Positions 13,259-38,153 of a stretch of DNA of 64,000 bases are shown piece by piece. The translations under genes were made by a program, and so were the position numbers. Source of the DNA: Desulfuromonadaceae bacterium (lineage in GTDB: Bacteria; Desulfobacterota; Desulfuromonadia; Geobacterales; Pseudopelobacteraceae); contig JAQUIG010000006.1 of the NCBI GenBank assembly GCA_028683435.1, positions 48,183-112,182 of the forward strand, given 5' to 3'. Position 1 is the stretch's first letter; every line of letters starts with the position of its first letter. The notes under the pieces were generated by a model that did not search any database, had not been told where the DNA came from, and saw nothing but the letters and a program-made list of their open reading frames with translations.

Positions 13259-13803
13259 ACACCCTCCCGGAGATAAACCGTAATGTGCAGAGCCATGACC
13301 ACATTCTCGACGAAAGGATCGCTGTTTGAAAAAGAAACGGTGTCGACCACTATCAATTCAGGATTTCCCTGAAGATCAGCAAGGTAACTTTTTACGGCAG
13401 CATACCCACCACTGACAGAGAACGACAGCTGATAGGAAAGCAGAGCTTCTTCCTTGACCTGCTGAGGTTTATAACTGATGGCGCCGACTTCGACTCCGCT
13501 GCTTGCCGCCGCTTCCAGCAAATCACTCAATACCCGGGCAAACTCCCTTTTCTCAGGTATCTTTCCCTTTACCGTTTCGAGATCAGCTGACCCCTGCTGA
13601 TAGAGGGCAGCGGGATCCATCTGTCCGGCACCGGCAACCCTCCGGCGCAGGCTGCCCCACTTAGTTTGCAGATCTGCCAAAACAGGGAGTTGATAGGTAG
13701 AGACTACGACAGCGAGGATCATGTTGAGCAGCAGCAGGATCAGGATAATGCTCAAAAAGCGCCATTTCTGACGGACTATTTCGAAAATAAGCTGTTTCAT
13801 CAA
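13255..13803 (-). CDS. PilO/GspM-like type IV pilus/T2SS assembly protein
   Basis: N-terminal TM, coiled coil, PilO-like body (LSFSVSGGYAAVKSYLADLQGNPELIVVDTVSFSN). Confidence 0.75.
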   Translation of the reverse strand: MMKQLIFEIVRQKWRFLSIILILLLLNMILAVVVSTYQLPVLADLQTKWGSLRRRVAGAGQMDPAALYQQGSADLETVKGKIPEKREFARVLSDLLEAAASSGVEVGAISYKPQQVKEEALLSYQLSFSVSGGYAAVKSYLADLQGNPELIVVDTVSFSNSDPFVENVVMALHITVYLREGV

Positions 13804-20763: not shown

Positions 20764-22719
20764 ATGTACTCATTCCTCAATAAATTTAAACTTCGTGGAA
20801 AATTGCTGGCGCTGGTCTTGCCGCTTGTTATAATCCCGATTTTAGTCGTTGCCGGAGTAATCGGCCTCATCGCCAATCAGCAGGCCTATCTGGGTATAAC
20901 CAAAACCAGCAAGGACGACCTGCAGCACCTTTCCGCATTCTGCATCGACCTGCTTAATTCACACTATCAGCAGTTCCAGGTCTATAAACAGGACAAAGCT
21001 CAGAATCTCAACAATGAATTGGCGACTTTGACCGCACTTTCCTACAACCTTGTTGCCGCCGAGCACCACCTGTATGCGCAGGGAAAAATTGATCTGAAAA
21101 CAGCCAAGAATGAGGCACGGCAGGCGTTAAAAAAAATAAACGTCGGCGAAAGTGGTTATATATATGCCATGACCAGCCGGGGTGACCTCCAGGCCCATAT
21201 CGCTCGTGAAGGTGAAAATGTATTTGACGAGCGAGATGAGAACGGCCGCTACTTCATCCGTGAAATGTGTGCGGCTGCCCTGGCCAGCAAACCGGGTGAA
21301 ACACTGTTCATAACCTACCCTTGGCGCAATGCTGTCTTGGGGGATACAAAAGCGCGCACCAAAGTTGTTGCATACAAATATTTCCGCCAATGGGACTGGA
21401 TAGTTGCATCCGGCAGTTATCCGAGTGAAGCTATCGGAGATGCCGCCTTTGAACGACAGGCATTTGCCAAACTTAAAGAGAGCATACGAGCCAAAAAAGT
21501 CGGTATGACCGGCTACATATTCTGTATGGACAGTAAAGGCACCTTTACAATCCATCCCGATTCCGAAGGGAAAAACCGGATCAACGAGAAGGATCTGGAT
21601 GGAAACAGCTTTATCAGGGAAATGTGCACTAATAAAAGCGGCTGGATTCGCTATCCCTGGAAAAACAGTGGTGACAAAGCGGCCCGGATGAAAATTGTAC
21701 GGTATGAATACTTTGAACCATGGGACTGGATTGTTGCTGTCGGATCGTACGAGGACGAATTTTATCAGGAAGCAAACAAGATCAAAACATATATTCTCCT
21801 TATCATGACACTTCTGATTCTGGTGGTAGGTGCGGCAGCAACGGCAATGGTTGTTAGAGCCTCAAAAGTTTTTACCGACCCTATTACACACATGATGACC
21901 GTCATAAAAAGTATTAAACGGGGCAATCTGGACGAACGGATCACCGCCAGCGGTGAAGACGAACTTGCCGAACTTGCGAGTGCCTTTAATCGCATGACTG
22001 ACATTATTCAGCGCAACAAGGCTATGGAATCCAATCTTGCTCAACAAGGGAAAATGGCCTCGCTGGGTGTACTGTCATCTGGCGTAGCCCATGAGATAAA
22101 TAACCCGCTGGGGGTGATTATGGGCTATGCAGGCTACCTGGAAAGCAAGATAAGTGAAGATGATCCCAACTATCAGTACATCCACGAAATCAAGCGAGAA
22201 AGCAAGCGGTGCAAAAAAATTGTTCAGGACCTGCTATCCTACGCCCGTACGCCACGCCCGATCCTTGAACCAACTGATCTCAATGCTCTTCTGCAGCAGA
22301 TTGTTGATTTTGCCGCCAATCATACCGATATGCGCGGGGTGACGATCAGCACCGATCTTGCAAAGAATCTGCCTCTGGTTGAACTGGATGGTGACCAGAT
22401 GCGCCAGGTCGCTATAAACCTTATCCTGAATGCCGGAGGGGCCATGCCGGACGGCGGAAACCTGACCCTCAGCACCGAAGCACTTGATTCCACACATGTA
22501 AACATAATATTCAGCGACAGCGGCGGCGGTATCCCGGCAGAAAGTCTGGAAAAAATTTTCGAGCCATTCTACACGACTAAAGCTAGCGGCACCGGACTGG
22601 GTCTGGCCATCACCCGGCAGATCATAGAGCAGCATCATGGCGAGATCCATATCGACAGCACAGTCGGCAGTGGTACGCGCGTCACCGTCACGCTGCCAAC
22701 AGAGCGAGAGGAACTTTAG
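20764..22719 (+). CDS. Cache-domain (double) membrane histidine kinase with HAMP
   Basis: Two repeats GESGYIYAM.../GMTGYIFCM...WDWIVA.GSY (sCache-like); H-box SSGVAHEINNPLGVIMGYAGYLE; N/G boxes FSDSGGGIP..FYTTKASGTGLGLAI. Confidence 0.93.
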   Translation: MYSFLNKFKLRGKLLALVLPLVIIPILVVAGVIGLIANQQAYLGITKTSKDDLQHLSAFCIDLLNSHYQQFQVYKQDKAQNLNNELATLTALSYNLVAAEHHLYAQGKIDLKTAKNEARQALKKINVGESGYIYAMTSRGDLQAHIAREGENVFDERDENGRYFIREMCAAALASKPGETLFITYPWRNAVLGDTKARTKVVAYKYFRQWDWIVASGSYPSEAIGDAAFERQAFAKLKESIRAKKVGMTGYIFCMDSKGTFTIHPDSEGKNRINEKDLDGNSFIREMCTNKSGWIRYPWKNSGDKAARMKIVRYEYFEPWDWIVAVGSYEDEFYQEANKIKTYILLIMTLLILVVGAAATAMVVRASKVFTDPITHMMTVIKSIKRGNLDERITASGEDELAELASAFNRMTDIIQRNKAMESNLAQQGKMASLGVLSSGVAHEINNPLGVIMGYAGYLESKISEDDPNYQYIHEIKRESKRCKKIVQDLLSYARTPRPILEPTDLNALLQQIVDFAANHTDMRGVTISTDLAKNLPLVELDGDQMRQVAINLILNAGGAMPDGGNLTLSTEALDSTHVNIIFSDSGGGIPAESLEKIFEPFYTTKASGTGLGLAITRQIIEQHHGEIHIDSTVGSGTRVTVTLPTEREEL

Positions 22720-24111
22720 ATGGGCGATAAAAAACGTATCCTACTTATTGATAATGAAGCTGGACTTTGCCGGATGATGGAACAGATTCTGCTGGATCAT
22801 GGTTATTTGACAAGATCCTTCACATCACCCCGCCAGGCGGTCGAAGAGTTCAAGGCCGCCGCATGGGATCTGGTCATCAGTGACATTAAAATGCCCGGCA
22901 TGAGCGGAATTGAGGTATTGCAGGCGATTAAAGCCAAGCAGCATGATATTCCGGTCATCATGATCACCGCATACGCAACCGTTGAGATGTCAATCCAGGC
23001 ACTTCGCAAGGGTGCGTACGACATGCTTACCAAGCCGTTCGAGCCTGACGAACTTGTCTACAGGGTAAAAAACGCCCTGCAGCAACGACAGCTGCTCGAG
23101 GAAAACCGTGAACTGCGAGCAGAACTTGAAAAAAAGTTTCGTTTTGAAAATATCATCGGAGCCTGCGAAGGGCTGAAGAGTGTTTTGGAACGTGTCGGCA
23201 AAATCGCCGTCAGGGATACGTCAATCCTGGTTACCGGTGAATCCGGAACCGGTAAAGAGTTGATCGCACAGGCGATCCATTATAACTCTCCACGCCATGA
23301 GAAAAGATTCGTTGCCATTAATTGCGGCGCTCTACCTGAAAACCTGTTGGAAAGTGAACTGTTCGGCTATAAAAAGGGGGCCTTCACCGGAGCGACGGAG
23401 AGTCGCTGCGGACTTTTGGAGACGGCCAACGGCGGCACCCTCTTTCTGGATGAAGTTGGCAACCTGCCGATGAATGTGCAAAAAACACTGCTCCGGTTTC
23501 TTCAGGAAAAGGAGTTCAACCGGCTTGGAGATACAACCCCTACACGTGTGGATGTAAGGATTCTCTCGGCTACCAACTCGGATATTAAAGAAGCCATAAA
23601 ACAGGGAGTTTTCCGTGAAGACCTCTACTATCGCCTGAATGTTGTCAATATCCATCTTCCCCCCCTGCGGGAACGACGCAGCGATATCCCGCTTCTAGCT
23701 GCCCACTTTATACTCCTTCAGAACCAGCAGTTTAAAACTGCGGTCAAAGGGTTTGAGAGCGAAGCCATGAGAATATTAAGCGAGTACGGGTGGCCGGGTA
23801 ATATCCGTCAGCTTAAAAATGTCATTGAAGCCTGTATGGCAATGGAAACGGGAGAATATATAGCCAGAGATACACTTGCCCAGTTTATTGAGGCTGGCCC
23901 AGACCGGCGTGCTGTTTCATGCGAAGCGCTACTGGCGAGCGATGACATACCGTATACAACGGCTTTGGAGCATTTCGAAGCAGATTTATTGGCAGGACTT
24001 CTGAAAAGACATAGAGGTAACATTGACCTGGCCGCGCGTGAAGCCGGCATGAACATGGCGACCATGTACCGAAAGATAAAGAGGTATGGCATTAAAAAGG
24101 AAAATTACTGA
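22720..24111 (+). CDS. Sigma-54-dependent NtrC-family response regulator
   Basis: REC domain, AAA+ VTGESGTGKELIAQAIH, GAFTGA motif (ELFGYKKGAFTGATES), C-terminal Fis-type HTH. Confidence 0.95.
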   Translation: MGDKKRILLIDNEAGLCRMMEQILLDHGYLTRSFTSPRQAVEEFKAAAWDLVISDIKMPGMSGIEVLQAIKAKQHDIPVIMITAYATVEMSIQALRKGAYDMLTKPFEPDELVYRVKNALQQRQLLEENRELRAELEKKFRFENIIGACEGLKSVLERVGKIAVRDTSILVTGESGTGKELIAQAIHYNSPRHEKRFVAINCGALPENLLESELFGYKKGAFTGATESRCGLLETANGGTLFLDEVGNLPMNVQKTLLRFLQEKEFNRLGDTTPTRVDVRILSATNSDIKEAIKQGVFREDLYYRLNVVNIHLPPLRERRSDIPLLAAHFILLQNQQFKTAVKGFESEAMRILSEYGWPGNIRQLKNVIEACMAMETGEYIARDTLAQFIEAGPDRRAVSCEALLASDDIPYTTALEHFEADLLAGLLKRHRGNIDLAAREAGMNMATMYRKIKRYGIKKENY

Positions 24112-24134: not shown

Positions 24135-24175
24135 GCAAAGAGAAAGCCCGGATTAAATCCGGGCTTTCTCTTTGC
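24135..24175. terminator. Bidirectional intrinsic terminator between convergent genes
   Basis: Perfect 20-bp arms GCAAAGAGAAAGCCCGGATT-a-AATCCGGGCTTTCTCTTTGC followed by an A run. Confidence 0.85.
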
Positions 24176-24207: not shown

Positions 24208-25254
24208 TTATTTCTTTGCAATAGCTGCTTTGAGAGGACCATTCATACGGATTGCTGTAGCAAACTCCATCCAGAAGACAAGATAGATTGAAATCATCAG
24301 CGAAAGGCCGATGTTCTGATTCTCAGCACCCAATGCTTTGGCCAATATTGGCGAAGCAAACCCAGCTCCATGAGTTCCAGTCACATGCTCAAGTATATAA
24401 AAAAGTGGCAATGTCAAAGCAGTCCCTACAAACATGATGGCGATACCAACAGGTCTCTTGACCCAATACTTCGGTGAGAAGCCGTACATACGCATAAAGA
24501 TGACAACCCAGATGATCCAGACGGAATAATCAACAGCCGCATCCGGCAGGGCCAGCTTGTTTTTTACCAGCACCACTTCCAGAACCGTTACGATGCCGAG
24601 CAGGGTAAACATCCAGTTAAACTTTTCATTGGCCTGGGTCTGCCAGTTACGGCTGTCCGGTGCCTGAACCTCTTTGAAGGAGTGGCTGTGAGTTCCGAGG
24701 GCAGAGAAAAGTATCGCAAACCAGATACCGGCGTTATGGAACAGGAGCGAGGCATGATTACCGGCTACGTTGGCAATACGTGACATCGGATCCCTGGCAA
24801 AATCACCGGCAATTCGCATCAGGAAGAGATTGGCTATAACGGAACAACCGATGATCACAGCAATGGTGAATAACCGTCGCGGAAGCAGGTACGGGTCAAC
24901 CTTGTCCGGAAAACCGATAATAAAAGCGAACCAGATCAGGAACATGATCAGCGGAATTCCGAAGGTTATCCCGTACACAGAGTTACCGGCAAAGTCTCCG
25001 CTCTGCGCATAAATGATATAATCATTTTTTGGATCAGCATCTGTATTAACAGCTTTGACAACATCTTTAGGCACTTTACCAACATGCGGCAGCAGCCCCA
25101 TGGCGTACCAGCCATGCTCACCCTGGTGCGTATCTATAACCCAGTACTGATCTCCCATCATTTCATCAAGACCAGCGAAGAGTTGCATACTGAAAGCGGC
25201 ACTGATGACGCAGGCAAGCAGCAGCAGAATAATATTGGGCATTTTCATTGGCAT
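24208..25254 (-). CDS. Polytopic membrane protein of unknown function
   Basis: 348 aa, about 8 hydrophobic segments, operonic with small membrane ORFs upstream. No family recognised. Confidence 0.75.
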   Translation of the reverse strand: MPMKMPNIILLLLACVISAAFSMQLFAGLDEMMGDQYWVIDTHQGEHGWYAMGLLPHVGKVPKDVVKAVNTDADPKNDYIIYAQSGDFAGNSVYGITFGIPLIMFLIWFAFIIGFPDKVDPYLLPRRLFTIAVIIGCSVIANLFLMRIAGDFARDPMSRIANVAGNHASLLFHNAGIWFAILFSALGTHSHSFKEVQAPDSRNWQTQANEKFNWMFTLLGIVTVLEVVLVKNKLALPDAAVDYSVWIIWVVIFMRMYGFSPKYWVKRPVGIAIMFVGTALTLPLFYILEHVTGTHGAGFASPILAKALGAENQNIGLSLMISIYLVFWMEFATAIRMNGPLKAAIAKK

Positions 25255-25318
25255 TTTTAATTCCCCCTATAAATAAGTATCTGAAATCATTCCCTGACAG
25301 CATAAAAGCGGGGTTTAA

Positions 25319-25570
25319 TCATTCTTTATGCGTAGTCCAGAACATTGAAACCGCATTAGCTGCAAAAAGTCCATACAGCCACATAGTGTTCCAGGCTGGA
25401 CCTGACCAGTGGCTACCGCGCCCACCACCAACAACTCCCGAAGCTATGACAATACCGATAATTGCGGTAAATGCCACCATCGCCACCGACCTCAGAATAG
25501 CGCTGTTTCGCCAGGTATGACGTTCAAGATCTTCAATCCGTCCCAGTAGTTCAAGCTCTCTTTCGCTCAT
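25319..25570 (-). CDS. Small membrane protein, 83 aa
   Basis: MSERELELLGRIEDLERHTWRNSAILRSVAMVAFTAIIGIVIASG...; AAGGAG RBS upstream of ATG(25570), preferred over the annotated alternative start at 25588. Confidence 0.65.
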   Translation of the reverse strand: MSERELELLGRIEDLERHTWRNSAILRSVAMVAFTAIIGIVIASGVVGGGRGSHWSGPAWNTMWLYGLFAANAVSMFWTTHKE

Positions 25571-25673
25571 TTCTTTTCTCCTTGGCAATTAGTAGTACAA
25601 CAAAAAGTGTGCTGACAAATACAGCCGGTGCAATAGGTACGTGACTATAATTAAGTGCGAAATGATACAGCAT
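25551..25673 (-). CDS. Micro-ORF, 40-aa single-TM protein (not in the supplied track)
   Basis: Reverse strand: MLYHFALNYSHVPIAPAVFVSTLFVVLLIAKEKRNERKRA*; RBS AAAGGGAGAACGCT-ATG; stop overlaps the start of the following gene. Confidence 0.55.
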   Translation of the reverse strand: MLYHFALNYSHVPIAPAVFVSTLFVVLLIAKEKRNERKRA

Positions 25674-25701: not shown

Positions 25702-25914
25702 TTAGTACGTTCCTGCACAACACCGGCCTTCTGCAGGAAAGCGGTCAGACAGCTCAAGATATTTGATACAATGGAGATGGCGCCCATGGCAGTAGCGGAT
25801 GATCATATTGACATCGTGCGGAGATATGTACCCGCATCCGACATCACATTGATCGTCATTTTTTCCATAAAACGGGCAGATAGTTTCGGATATCATATGT
25901 TCCTCAATTGACAT
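25702..25914 (-). CDS. Cysteine-rich small protein, 70 aa (putative metal-binding)
   Basis: ICPFYGKNDDQCDVGCGYISPHDVNMIIRYCHGRHLHCIKYLELSDR; multiple Cys/His; first gene of the 25914-24208 operon. Confidence 0.65.
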   Translation of the reverse strand: MSIEEHMISETICPFYGKNDDQCDVGCGYISPHDVNMIIRYCHGRHLHCIKYLELSDRFPAEGRCCAGTY

Positions 25915-26019
25915 AATTCACCATATACTTTGCACATGCTGTGCCAAACAGCCAATATTCGTATTTTACTATTAAATACAATGTGTTATATAATATTGAA
26001 TCTTTATTTAATAAATGCT

Positions 26020-26035
26020 TTTGCAAACATGCAAA
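26020..26035. promoter_or_regulatory. Palindromic operator candidate TTTGCA-N4-TGCAAA, copy 1
   Basis: TTTGCAAACATGCAAA, overlapping a second perfect palindrome ATGCAAATTTGCAT (26029-26042). Confidence 0.6.
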
Positions 26036-26145
26036 TTTGCATCAATCCACTGAAATATTTTAACCTCACTGCAGACGAACATATAAATTTATATGCCTAA
26101 TATTTACAGTTACATGGAGCCATATACAGTCACTTAACCGCTTAT

Positions 26146-26161
26146 TTTGCATATCTGCAAA
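26146..26161. promoter_or_regulatory. Palindromic operator candidate TTTGCA-N4-TGCAAA, copy 2
   Basis: TTTGCATATCTGCAAA. Confidence 0.6.
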
Positions 26162-26168
26162 TTACGTT

Positions 26169-26184
26169 TTTGCATTTTTGCAAG
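26169..26184. promoter_or_regulatory. Palindromic operator candidate, copy 3 (one mismatch)
   Basis: TTTGCATTTTTGCAAG, 23 bp from copy 2. Confidence 0.5.
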
Positions 26185-26447: not shown

Positions 26448-26909
26448 TTGAAAGAAACGGATCACAAGGCCGTGGTAGTGTCGGATGAGAGGTGGAGGCA
26501 CTTTGTGCTGGTCCCATTGGTCGGCGTCTACCTCTTTTCCATGCTCATAACTCTTTCCCACCTTGGTGAACCGTTTCCCTTTATGGGGGAATTATTCTCA
26601 GAAGAGACCAGCGAATCCTTAATCTTTGCCGACAGCGTTATCTCTTTATACCTCATTGTCGGAATACTGAAGCGGCAACGACTCACCCTCTGGCTGCTCA
26701 TCGCCTACAATTTTGTCGTAAGTTTTAATGGGATCGCCAACCTCTTTCTGCTCCCTATCCAGCAGATAGTCACAGCTTCGGGAACCATCGCCCCCGACCA
26801 CCACTACCGCCTCAATGCTTTCGGCGTGTTCGTTTTGTTCCTGATGCTGAACGTGTTCCTATATTTCAACCGGCGCCACTTCGACAATAAATCCATTTAC
26901 CTGTGGTAG
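26448..26909 (+). CDS. Four-TM membrane protein of unknown function
   Basis: TTG start with strong RBS (AAAGGAGGGATACC); 153 aa with four hydrophobic segments. Confidence 0.7.
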   Translation: MKETDHKAVVVSDERWRHFVLVPLVGVYLFSMLITLSHLGEPFPFMGELFSEETSESLIFADSVISLYLIVGILKRQRLTLWLLIAYNFVVSFNGIANLFLLPIQQIVTASGTIAPDHHYRLNAFGVFVLFLMLNVFLYFNRRHFDNKSIYLW

Positions 26910-27062: not shown

Positions 27063-27692
27063 TTATGCGGTAACCTCTTTAGCAGCGAGGACTTCCTCAG
27101 TTTGGGCCTTGTCCTTGAGCCAGGCCTCTCCGACAGGGAGCTTAATGCCTGATTCAGCATACACGGTGACTGCCATCAGGTACAGCGCGGAGAAACCGCA
27201 AATAAGCAGGTCATACGCTGCAAAGGTTCCGGCAAGGGCGCTGCCGGCAAGTTCTTTCAGGTCAAGACCGATAAATCCAAGGAGCAAGGTAAGGAAGATA
27301 AAGGCCAGTGTCGCGTTATGCTTCATCGAGGCGATAAAGAGGATGAAGGTGAAGAGGGTCCATGCTACCAGGAAGAATCCGAGATCGTTTGCGGTGAAGG
27401 CGAGAGTTGGATAGGCCTTGGCCAGATCCGGGCTCTTCCCGAATATCACCATAAGACAAAGGGAGATCCAAAAAGCTCCATAACCGGTAAAGGCACAAAA
27501 ACCGAAGTTGTTGCCGGTTTTAAACTCCATCAGGCCGGCGATGAGTTGAGCTGAACCACCGAAGCAGAGCCCGAGCCAGAGGACGGGGGCGATACCGCAC
27601 CATCCCAAGTTATGACATTGAAGCACCAATGTTGTCATTCCGAAACCAGCGAGTCCGACTACCGCAGGATTTCCAAGTTTTAATTCACCCAT
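27063..27692 (-). CDS. Acetate uptake transporter family protein (GPR1/FUN34/YaaH, SatP-like)
   Basis: LGNPAVVGLAGFGMTTLVLQCHNLGWCG...FGGSAQLIAGLMEFKTGNNFGFCAFTGYGAFWISL matches the YaaH signature pattern. Confidence 0.92.
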   Translation of the reverse strand: MGELKLGNPAVVGLAGFGMTTLVLQCHNLGWCGIAPVLWLGLCFGGSAQLIAGLMEFKTGNNFGFCAFTGYGAFWISLCLMVIFGKSPDLAKAYPTLAFTANDLGFFLVAWTLFTFILFIASMKHNATLAFIFLTLLLGFIGLDLKELAGSALAGTFAAYDLLICGFSALYLMAVTVYAESGIKLPVGEAWLKDKAQTEEVLAAKEVTA

Positions 27693-27949
27693 TTCTTCCT
27701 CCTATTTCACTTTGCTTTATTTTATTTTGCTACTTTATTATCTACAGCAAGTAACATACCAATGTTATATAATTTTGTATTCTCAAAAAAAACGCAAATT
27801 ATCGAGGTGTTACATCCAACTGCACAAAAGCTCACACTCCTGCCAGTTTCGCAGCATTGCAAAAATATTCTTTGACGGTTTACTCAATGGGAGGGTGAAA
27901 AAGACTAAAATCCTGCTAGTTCAGGCTGTGCGGGGTAACATGGTGGATG

Positions 27950-27965
27950 TTTGCAAAAATGCAAA
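27950..27965. promoter_or_regulatory. Palindromic operator candidate TTTGCA-N4-TGCAAA, copy 4
   Basis: TTTGCAAAAATGCAAA upstream of the SatP-like gene. Confidence 0.6.
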
Positions 27966-27970
27966 TTAGA

Positions 27971-27986
27971 TTTGCAAATATGCAAA
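27971..27986. promoter_or_regulatory. Palindromic operator candidate TTTGCA-N4-TGCAAA, copy 5
   Basis: TTTGCAAATATGCAAA, 21 bp centre-to-centre from copy 4. Confidence 0.6.
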
Positions 27987-35484: not shown

Positions 35485-36621
35485 TTAGTACATTTCGTTG
35501 GCATCTTCGCTCGTCAACTCGGCCAGTGTCAGTTTTTTAGCATCCATCAGCTTCCAGACATAGGCAATATAGCCAAGAACAAAAGGAACAGCCAAGGCCA
35601 CATAGCTCATGACGGTGAGGGTATACTTGCTGCTTGAGGCGTTGTAGATGGTAAGGCTTGATTGCAGATCGGTCACGGACGGATAAAAGGCGGTATTGTT
35701 GTAGCCGGCCAGGAAAAAAATAGCCAGACCAACAAGTACCGTTCCAAGGCCCCCAAACCAGATACCATAATTTTTACCAAGAAAGCCGGTGGCAAGCACT
35801 CCGTAAATAACTGAAACCAGTCCGCCCAGCAGCATGATCAGCACAGCAGGCATACCCAGCAGATTGTGAAGGTATTTACCCTTCTCCATGAAGATGTTAC
35901 CTGTGACCGAATCAACTGCAAAGCCGTCCATGGTGGCAAGGCTGATCAGGATAACCAGCAGAAAGGGGAGGGCCAGCACAAGGTTTATCCAGGTCGCCTT
36001 GCGAGCCCGCAAAACCAGGGCATCATGGTCAACATGGTTGACGATGTACATGGCTCCCAGGGTCCGGGCCAGAAAAACCAGGAACAGACCGAAGGAAAGA
36101 TTGAACAGGTTGAACGCCGCTTCCAGTCCGTGGTACGAAGTACCCCATTTGACAGAGTTGAACATATCGAGGCTGAAACGGGAACCGGTAAAAAAGGTGC
36201 CCACCGCTGCACCGATCAGGAGAATCCCTACGCTGCCGTTAATGAACATGAAGATCTCATAGGTACGCGCGCCGAGAAAATTATCCGGTTTCTTGCGGTA
36301 TTCATAACTGACCGCCTGGAGGATAAAGGTAAAGAGAATAAGCATCCACACCCAGTAGGCACCGCCGAAGCTCGTGGCGTAAAAGAGCGGGAAGGCCGCG
36401 AACAGGGCGCCTCCAAAAAGGACCAGTGTGGTGAAGGTCAATTCCCATTTGCGTCCCATGGTGTTGATGATCAGAGATTTTTCCTCTTCAGTAGTCGCCG
36501 TAGTAAAAATCAGCGTCTGCCCCCCCTGAACAAAAGTCAGGAAGAGAAAGAGTGAGCCGACAACTGAAGTAATCAACCACCAGAGTTGCTGCAGGGTTGT
36601 GTGATCCAGATTTCCTATCAT
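35485..36621 (-). CDS. cydB: Cytochrome bd quinol oxidase subunit II
   Basis: LWWLITSVVGSLFLFLTFVQGGQTLIF..EEEKSLIINTMGRKWELTFTTLVLFGGALFAAFPLFYATSFGGAYWVWM. Confidence 0.95.
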   Translation of the reverse strand: MIGNLDHTTLQQLWWLITSVVGSLFLFLTFVQGGQTLIFTTATTEEEKSLIINTMGRKWELTFTTLVLFGGALFAAFPLFYATSFGGAYWVWMLILFTFILQAVSYEYRKKPDNFLGARTYEIFMFINGSVGILLIGAAVGTFFTGSRFSLDMFNSVKWGTSYHGLEAAFNLFNLSFGLFLVFLARTLGAMYIVNHVDHDALVLRARKATWINLVLALPFLLVILISLATMDGFAVDSVTGNIFMEKGKYLHNLLGMPAVLIMLLGGLVSVIYGVLATGFLGKNYGIWFGGLGTVLVGLAIFFLAGYNNTAFYPSVTDLQSSLTIYNASSSKYTLTVMSYVALAVPFVLGYIAYVWKLMDAKKLTLAELTSEDANEMY

Positions 36622-36623
36622 TT

Positions 36624-38153
36624 TTATGCCTCCGGTCCGGTCTTGATTTGCTTCAGCATAATACGAATTTCAGCCAGCAGCAGTGCAGTAAACAGGGTCA
36701 GGAAGATGAAAAAGGTGGCCTGCACGTTGCTCGTGGCAATGTTAGTACTTGCCACATTCACCGGCAGCAGTCCCTGAATAGCCCACGGTTGCCGACCTAC
36801 CTCAGCCACCACCCATCCAGCCTGTTGCGCCACATAGCCTAAAAAGATGGAAAGAAGACACGCCAGGTTCAGCCAGCGTTGGTTCTCGAGGGTCCCCTTG
36901 AAAGCAAAAAAGAGTACCAGCAGAAAGATCAGCGGAAACAGGGTTCCCAGCACCACCATAATATGGAAACTGTAGAATGCAATGGCCACAGGCGGTACGG
37001 CCTGAGCCGGGCTTTTCAGATAACCGTAACCAAGATCTCCCTTGTGCTGGTTAAAGAGGACCAGAGCGGATGCGGCATCTGCCGCATCCCCACTATTCTT
37101 GGCATTCTTGTAGCGGGTCAGTTCGGCTACGGCGATCTTGCCGGTGACCATGCGCTGTTCGGCGCCGACAATATTACGCTCGGTATTGCCGAAGACCAGA
37201 TCGTTGATCCCGGGAACATAGCTGTCAACATCCCGATTGGCGAGGAGCGAAAGCAGACCGGGGATTTTCACCTCCTGGTGAAATGCAGGGAGGTCATCGC
37301 CCGGTTTCTTGCTGGAGTTGATGATACCTGCGGCGATGATCGGAGCCTTTTCCTGCCCTACATATAATCCTTCTATGGCCGCCAGTTTCATCGGCTGCCT
37401 GTGCGCTACGTTGAAGGCGGCCTCATCACCGGTAAAGGCGCAAAAGATCGAAGCAATGAAACCAAATACTGCGGCGACCACCATGCTCCGCTTGGCCATT
37501 TTCTGATGGCGTTTCTGCAGCAGGAAGAGAGAGGAGATGCCCACAACGAAGAGCGAAGCGAGCAGAAAGGCAGAGCTTGTGGTGTGAGTGAACTTGTGGA
37601 CAGCCACAGGAGAGAGGGCAACGTCCCAGAAGCTTTGCATTTCAAAGCGGGCCCTGTCGGGGTTAAAGGCCATGCCTGTCGGAAACTGCATCCAGGCATT
37701 GGCGACCAGAATCCAGACCGCCGAGAGGCTGGAGCCCACCGCCACCATCCAGGTGGAAAAGAGATGAAAACCCTTGGAAACCCTATGCCAGCCGAAAAAC
37801 ATCACGGCAAAGAAAGCGGCTTCGAGAAAGAAGGCAAAAATCCCCTCGATGGCCAAGGGCGCACCGAAGATGTCTCCCACCATCCAGGAGTAATTGGACC
37901 AGTTGGTGCCGAATTGGAACTCAAGAATGATGCCGGTAGCTATACCGATGGCAAAATTGACGCCGAAGAGCGTCATCCAGAACTTGGTCAGTTTCTTCCA
38001 CTCTTCGTTGCCTGTTTTGACATAGATCGACTCAAAAAAGGCAACAAGAAAGGAGAGTCCCAGTGTCAACGGCACGAAAATCCAGTGATACATGGCGGTC
38101 AGCGCAAATTGCGCCCTCGCCCAATCTACCGTGCTTAAAATTTGATCTTCCAA
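36624..38153 (-). CDS. cydA: Cytochrome bd quinol oxidase subunit I
   Basis: VDWARAQFALTAMYHWIFVPLTLGLSFLVAFFES; EGIFAFFLEAAFFAVMFFGW; FYSFHIMV; GWVVAEVGRQPWAIQGLLP. Confidence 0.96.
   Translation of the reverse strand: MEDQILSTVDWARAQFALTAMYHWIFVPLTLGLSFLVAFFESIYVKTGNEEWKKLTKFWMTLFGVNFAIGIATGIILEFQFGTNWSNYSWMVGDIFGAPLAIEGIFAFFLEAAFFAVMFFGWHRVSKGFHLFSTWMVAVGSSLSAVWILVANAWMQFPTGMAFNPDRARFEMQSFWDVALSPVAVHKFTHTTSSAFLLASLFVVGISSLFLLQKRHQKMAKRSMVVAAVFGFIASIFCAFTGDEAAFNVAHRQPMKLAAIEGLYVGQEKAPIIAAGIINSSKKPGDDLPAFHQEVKIPGLLSLLANRDVDSYVPGINDLVFGNTERNIVGAEQRMVTGKIAVAELTRYKNAKNSGDAADAASALVLFNQHKGDLGYGYLKSPAQAVPPVAIAFYSFHIMVVLGTLFPLIFLLVLFFAFKGTLENQRWLNLACLLSIFLGYVAQQAGWVVAEVGRQPWAIQGLLPVNVASTNIATSNVQATFFIFLTLFTALLLAEIRIMLKQIKTGPEA

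Follow-up and report, generated by a model that had tools for sequence, protein, structure and literature searches.

The AtoSC two-component system of Escherichia coli, associated with acetoacetate and short-chain fatty acids, combines an NtrC-type response regulator with a σ54 promoter and a palindromic upstream activating sequence (UAS) (PMC3118216), and the AtoC site consists of two inverted 20-bp copies (GCTATGCAGAAATTTGCACA). The CrbS/CrbR system of Pseudomonas and Vibrio places acetate utilisation and transport under two-component control, with a conserved inverted repeat as the DNA element; the sensor CrbS contains an SLC5 domain, the regulator CrbR is of the LuxR type, and PMC5715377 describes no enhancer-type σ54 control for the system. 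In Desulfovibrio vulgaris, a member of a sulfate/metal-reducing lineage, σ54-dependent lactate/pyruvate regulons such as that of DVU3023 employ enhancer-binding response regulators for carboxylate uptake and metabolism (PMC4641369). Ligands of this class are also bound by the Cache domains of PscD, Adeh_3718 and a V. parahaemolyticus chemoreceptor (5G4Y, 4K08 and 4EXO). PscD binds propionate, acetate, glycolate and pyruvate, and 4K08 and 4EXO contain acetate and pyruvate, respectively; the PscD ligand accepts hydrogen bonds from Tyr90, His103, Tyr143 and Lys156 and is sandwiched between Trp92 and Trp145 (PMC5062169).

The locus described here lies within a 64-kb stretch of DNA from a Desulfuromonadaceae bacterium; this whole stretch is referred to as the window, and the features of the locus are listed in Table 1. 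Elsewhere in the window, a cydAB-like cytochrome bd oxidase gene pair at 35485-38153, recognised by eye from the translations, is a sign of oxygen tolerance.

The initial annotation drew attention to three TTTGCA-N4-TGCAAA palindromes between a membrane-protein operon and the gene starting at 26448. Judged from the sequence, it is probable that these palindromes and those of a second cluster are the UAS of two σ54 promoters and are bound by the response regulator of a monocarboxylate-sensing two-component system encoded next to the operon.

Table 1. Coordinates and assignments of the features of the locus (positions are those of the window)
Feature	Position	Strand	Sequence or remark
Sensor histidine kinase	20764..22719	+	two Cache modules, HAMP, HisKA (H443), HATPase
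AtoC/NtrC-type response regulator, proposed site binder	22720..24111	+	receiver D55, AAA+ GAFTGA (220), Fis-type HTH
M348, uncharacterised polytopic membrane protein	24208..25254	-	
S89, small membrane protein, 83-89 aa	25319..25570	-	conserved upstream of M348
40-aa putative one-helix membrane peptide, uncertain gene	25551..25673	-	
Small Cys-rich protein, first gene of the operon	25702..25896	-	CPFYGKxDDxCDVGCGYIxPHDVNMIIRYC
Predicted σ54 -24/-12 promoter of the membrane-protein operon	25931..25946	-	TGGCACAGCATGTGCA
Predicted UAS 3 of the membrane-protein operon	26020..26035		TTTGCAAACATGCAAA, exact; position kept in relatives
Predicted UAS 2 of the membrane-protein operon	26146..26161		TTTGCATATCTGCAAA, exact; position kept in relatives
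Predicted UAS 1 of the membrane-protein operon	26169..26184		TTTGCATTTTTGCAAG, 1 mismatch; position kept in relatives
M153, 153-aa membrane protein	from 26448	+	
SatP / GPR1-FUN34-YaaH (AceTr) acetate uptake transporter, acetate/succinate family	27063..27692	-	
Predicted σ54 promoter of SatP	27746..27761	-	TGGTATGTTACTTGCT
Predicted promoter-proximal UAS of SatP	27848..27863		TTCGCAGCATTGCAAA, 1 mismatch; position conserved
Predicted UAS upstream of SatP	27950..27965		exact
Predicted UAS upstream of SatP	27971..27986		exact

Palindromic Sites in the Window and in the Genome

All three copies that had been noted are present, one of them with a mismatch (the counterpart of UAS 1 is exact in G021 and G030), and a second cluster that had been overlooked lies 1.7 kb from the first, upstream of the SatP gene. 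Pattern searches of the whole 3.17-Mb genome found four exact matches, all between 26020 and 27986 of the window, and none to a reversed-pattern control; with at most one mismatch, 14 sites were found against 3 for the reversed control, 6 of the 14 being in the two clusters. First-order Markov copies of the whole window contained a mean of 0.005 exact matches per copy, and in none of 5000 shuffles did the intergenic region at 26 kb contain three or more sites with at most one mismatch.

When intergenic and coding matches were compared, as had been suggested, the top six matches of a position weight matrix (PWM), built from other genomes and scanned over the 64-kb window, are exactly the six intergenic sites, the best five scoring 21.6-25.0 bits and the sixth 18.5 bits, and the strongest coding match, at 13665, scores 16.8 bits, below all six. 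A two-mismatch site at 24171 (TTTGCAAAAATACAAG, PWM score 12.1 bits), which overlaps a hairpin separating the regulator gene from the convergent M348 gene, probably arose by chance.

Arrangement of Sites and σ54 Promoters

A search for the σ54 element TGGCAC-N5-TTGCW with GG-N10-GC has shown that the -24/-12 consensus, including GG-N10-GC, is present ahead of both the membrane-protein operon and SatP. The centre of the promoter-proximal site lies 82.5 bp from the -24 GG in the operon (26020) and 95.5 bp from it in SatP (27848), both within the roughly 80-200 bp at which activator sites are expected ahead of a promoter.

The arrangement of site and promoter recurs among 80 named loci retrieved with the M348 protein, 74 of which had sites and enough upstream DNA. 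With a threshold score of at least 10 of 12, an element on the operon strand was found no more than 180 bp downstream of the last site in 70 of these 74 loci, and on the opposite strand in 1 of 74, the shuffle expectation being 0.81. The usual set consists of a pair of sites about 30 bp apart (range 21-33) and a third site 102-139 bp, mostly 123-139 bp, nearer the promoter, and the centre of the last UAS is on average about 99 bp from -24. The SatP promoters and those of an SfMCT-type lactate transporter gene show the same arrangement as the M348 operon promoter: the regions upstream of SatP carry sites in 9 of 9 cases and a σ54 element in 6 of 9, none being recognised at the SatP site clusters of L174, L175 and L193. 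As read from this arrangement, the sites are UAS of σ54 promoters that are conserved throughout Geobacterales, and TTTGCA-N4-TGCAAA most likely represents docking sites for the neighbouring two-component activator. The reading of the palindromes as sites of a dimeric transcription factor is supported, and they have kept their positions in orthologous regions. Neither outcome that the initial annotation named as refuting its view, equal frequency in coding DNA or a lack of positional conservation, is observed.

Isolated exact single sites that lack a recognised σ54 element occur in some relatives (L154-L156, L159, L163, L164, L185 and L186) and are treated as chance occurrences or as sites with other functions. 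Two of them (5132 in L154 and 2302 in L159, from G003 and G022) are exact sites located between genes for a CheA-like protein and a different NtrC-type regulator. In the related genomes G101 and G100 (L181 at 3537 and L183 at 3756), an exact site and, 31 bp from it, a one-mismatch site lie close to a pair of NrfD/4Fe-4S electron-transfer genes, a possible further target.

Membrane-Protein Operon and Transporter Targets

The first gene of the operon encodes the small Cys-rich protein, which is possibly metal-binding. A GAGG Shine-Dalgarno-like sequence favours its ATG at 25896 over the in-frame ATG at 25914, which is too near the predicted transcription start. Homologues are found in L166, L187, L189 and L190, and a Pfam scan of one of them gave no match. 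None of the operon products (the Cys-rich protein, the 40-aa peptide, S89 and M348) has a convincing Pfam or NCBIfam match; the predicted structure of M348 has a pLDDT of 51.5, and a profile search of the PDB with M348 returned nothing at E<=1. S89 and M348 (24208-25588) form a membrane-protein pair that is highly conserved and belongs to no known family, and the view that the sites are part of the regulatory region of a scarcely described membrane-protein system is upheld. Among 297 sampled genomes of the phylum, M348 was found outside Geobacterales in one other family only (L200 and L201), where the regulator, a site and a promoter accompany it, suggesting horizontal transfer of the whole module.

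The proposal that both genes flanking the first cluster are controlled from it holds for the minus-strand operon, through its predicted σ54 promoter, and is not supported for M153 on the plus strand. No good σ54 element faces the 26448 gene in the window, and its homologues located away from the M348 operon have no sites. The gene is therefore probably not a target, and neither a divergent promoter for it nor a shared divergent control region is supported. In relatives, M153 is the convergent neighbour of SatP.

SatP scores 143.2 bits against NCBIfam NF038013 (cut-off 50) and aligns along its length with the solved SatP structures 5zug and 5ys3. In relatives, L-lactate transporters of the SfMCT type (397-403 bits against NF049980, cut-off 320) are encoded directly after M348 in 29 of 73 named loci, and where the SfMCT gene does not follow M348 it has its own sites and σ54 promoter. 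A close SfMCT was not found in the genome studied here, which has SatP. Among the M348-bearing genomes of the family, SfMCT is present in 1 of 9 with SatP and in 38 of 48 without it (Fisher 2e-4), so that the two transporters look interchangeable in the regulon. The predicted targets would be the uncharacterised membrane-protein operon and either SatP or an SfMCT-type lactate transporter. Leang et al. have mapped an RpoD start for the G. sulfurreducens 'oxalate-formate antiporter' GSU2490 (PMC2725144), which counts against this assignment, and against the UAS model as a whole, should GSU2490 be the orthologue of the SfMCT-type target. A tentative hypothesis, to which we give less than even weight, is that S89/M348 and the Cys-rich protein make up an undescribed membrane module that acts in concert with SfMCT or SatP alike, perhaps as an accessory subunit or one that gates or energises transport, and that a tandem-Cache, acetate-sensing two-component σ54 pair characteristic of Geobacterales switches the whole uptake system.

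Sensor Kinase and Its Signal

Four PDB chains match the second Cache module of the kinase, and each is a chemoreceptor Cache domain. Among 40-74 kinase orthologues, both Cache modules retain the equivalents of Tyr90, His103, Tyr143, Trp145 and Lys156 of PscD without variation, and the equivalent of Trp92 differs from PscD, being Tyr in module 1 and Phe or Tyr in module 2. These features suggest that the ligand of the kinase is a C2/C3 monocarboxylate, most likely acetate, with propionate, pyruvate or lactate as possible ligands.

The same architecture and regulator could instead respond to another signal, such as an amino acid, a larger acid or the envelope or redox state, so that regulation of the transporters would be incidental. 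Cache domains bind many ligands, and M348 and the Cys-rich protein are of unknown function, both of which leave room for such a signal; we nevertheless regard it as unlikely, since the four PDB relatives of module 2 are chemoreceptor domains whose bound ligands are acetate, pyruvate or propionate (PMC5062169), all four hydrogen-bonding residues and one sandwiching Trp are invariant, and the two targets that can be recognised both transport monocarboxylates.

We also considered autoregulation of the kinase and set it aside: 18 of 40 kinase orthologues are preceded by sites, the kinase in the window has none upstream, and no σ54 element was recognised at the kinase-upstream sites of the 18 orthologues. 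Like the SatP clusters of L174, L175 and L193, these sites weigh against the UAS reading.

Response Regulator as the Candidate Binder

The 22720-24111 regulator has the architecture of NtrC-type enhancer-binding proteins, with a receiver, a σ54 AAA+ domain with GAFTGA and a Fis-type HTH. Its orthologues, present in most genomes of the order, share 68-95% identity, and its paralogues no more than 46%, leaving a clear gap. In a sample of 112 genomes of at least 90% completeness, an exact site is present in 82 of 85 genomes with the regulator and in 10 of 27 without it (Fisher 1e-10, a value that ignores the shared ancestry of these genomes, which are related and not independent samples). Of the three genomes that have the regulator but no exact site, two (G056 and G075; L165 and L166) show sites with one mismatch ahead of M348. 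Geomonas, Citrifermentans and others have kinase, regulator, sites and operon side by side, and in distant families (L102, L189 and L190) the regulator, sites and operon likewise adjoin one another. In L200 and L201, which belong to a different family of the same phylum, the regulator gene adjoins the operon, the intervening DNA contains a site with one mismatch and a σ54 element, and M348 of L201 is followed by an SfMCT-type gene. Because its orthologue accompanies the sites throughout the order and directly adjoins them in distant lineages, the regulator is singled out as the likely activator.

Alternatively, another enhancer-binding protein, encoded away from this locus, might act at these UAS, for example a paralogue with 40-46% identity. 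Several NtrC-type paralogues occur in the genome (8 matches at E<=1e-100), the regulator gene lies away from the sites in several genomes, and a few genomes keep sites without an orthologue of the regulator (G022, G039 and G128 with 3-5 sites, and also G030, where the regulator could be missed because a contig ends next to M348, an explanation limited to G030). Against this, co-occurrence and adjacency point to the orthologue of the 22720-24111 regulator, and its recognition-helix region NMxTxYRK is distinctive, being invariant in orthologues and different in paralogues. Binding by another such protein is quite improbable.

The link drawn by the initial annotation to acyl-CoA-responsive XRE-type regulators of the ScfR family (RamB/PrpR/PccR) has in its favour a superficial TTTGC/GCAAA likeness and a short-chain acid theme, and is almost certainly wrong because no ScfR-family protein is encoded that could bind: PF09856 is unmatched in this 99.9%-complete genome, the same search finds its matches in Caulobacter and Corynebacterium, and the sites lie at enhancer distance from σ54 promoters. 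That the theme lies near a function regulated by RamB/PrpR is a coincidence.

From the sites, the promoters and their spacing, together with conservation, co-occurrence, domain architecture and the retained ligand residues, we infer the following course of events for the 22720-24111 regulator. A periplasmic C2/C3 monocarboxylate, acetate or a similar compound, would bind to the two Cache modules of the kinase, which would phosphorylate the regulator or alter the phosphorylation of D55. Regulator dimers would then occupy the two distal sites and the one nearest the promoter and form a higher oligomer, and with looping of the DNA the GAFTGA-containing AAA+ module would open σ54 RNA polymerase at 25946-25931 and 27761-27746. 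The former promoter would drive transcription of the genes for the Cys-rich protein, the small peptide, S89 and M348, and the latter that of SatP. The response could be induction by acetate or by the absence of acetate.

Comparison with Known Systems

Geobacter-type metal reducers and current producers use acetate as their central electron donor. No regulator of Geobacter acetate uptake was found in the literature searched, and neither the motif nor the regulator is mentioned in the main text of the openly available Geobacter genome and RpoN papers examined. The regulon proposed here, with a two-component σ54 switch that would sense C2/C3 monocarboxylates, is apparently undescribed. The present assignment offers a concrete triple of sensor, regulator and DNA site, together with a ligand class and a small regulon, both predicted, and inclusion of the conserved M348 membrane-protein family in that regulon gives the family a likely physiological context.

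The best curated matches of the regulator and the kinase are AtoC and AtoS, both below cut-off (451.6 bits against 714 and 255.5 bits against 646, respectively). The system resembles AtoSC in its NtrC-type regulator, σ54 promoters, palindromic UAS and short-chain acid theme, but its kinase has two Cache modules with PscD-type ligand residues, its site differs from that of AtoC, and no atoDAEB-type target is seen. With CrbS/CrbR it would share two-component control of acetate-related functions and a conserved inverted repeat, whereas the sensor domain, the regulator class and the site are different. The likeness to the DVU3023-type regulons of D. vulgaris is drawn on the type and role of the regulator, the targets being different. 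The Cache domains of PscD and its relatives are homologous to the ligand-binding modules here, which have the carboxylate residues of PscD; PscD-type proteins are single-Cache chemoreceptors, whereas here two modules precede a histidine kinase. By this comparison of sequences, the kind of switch is familiar, and the assignment of sensor, regulator and site and the link to M348 appear to be new.
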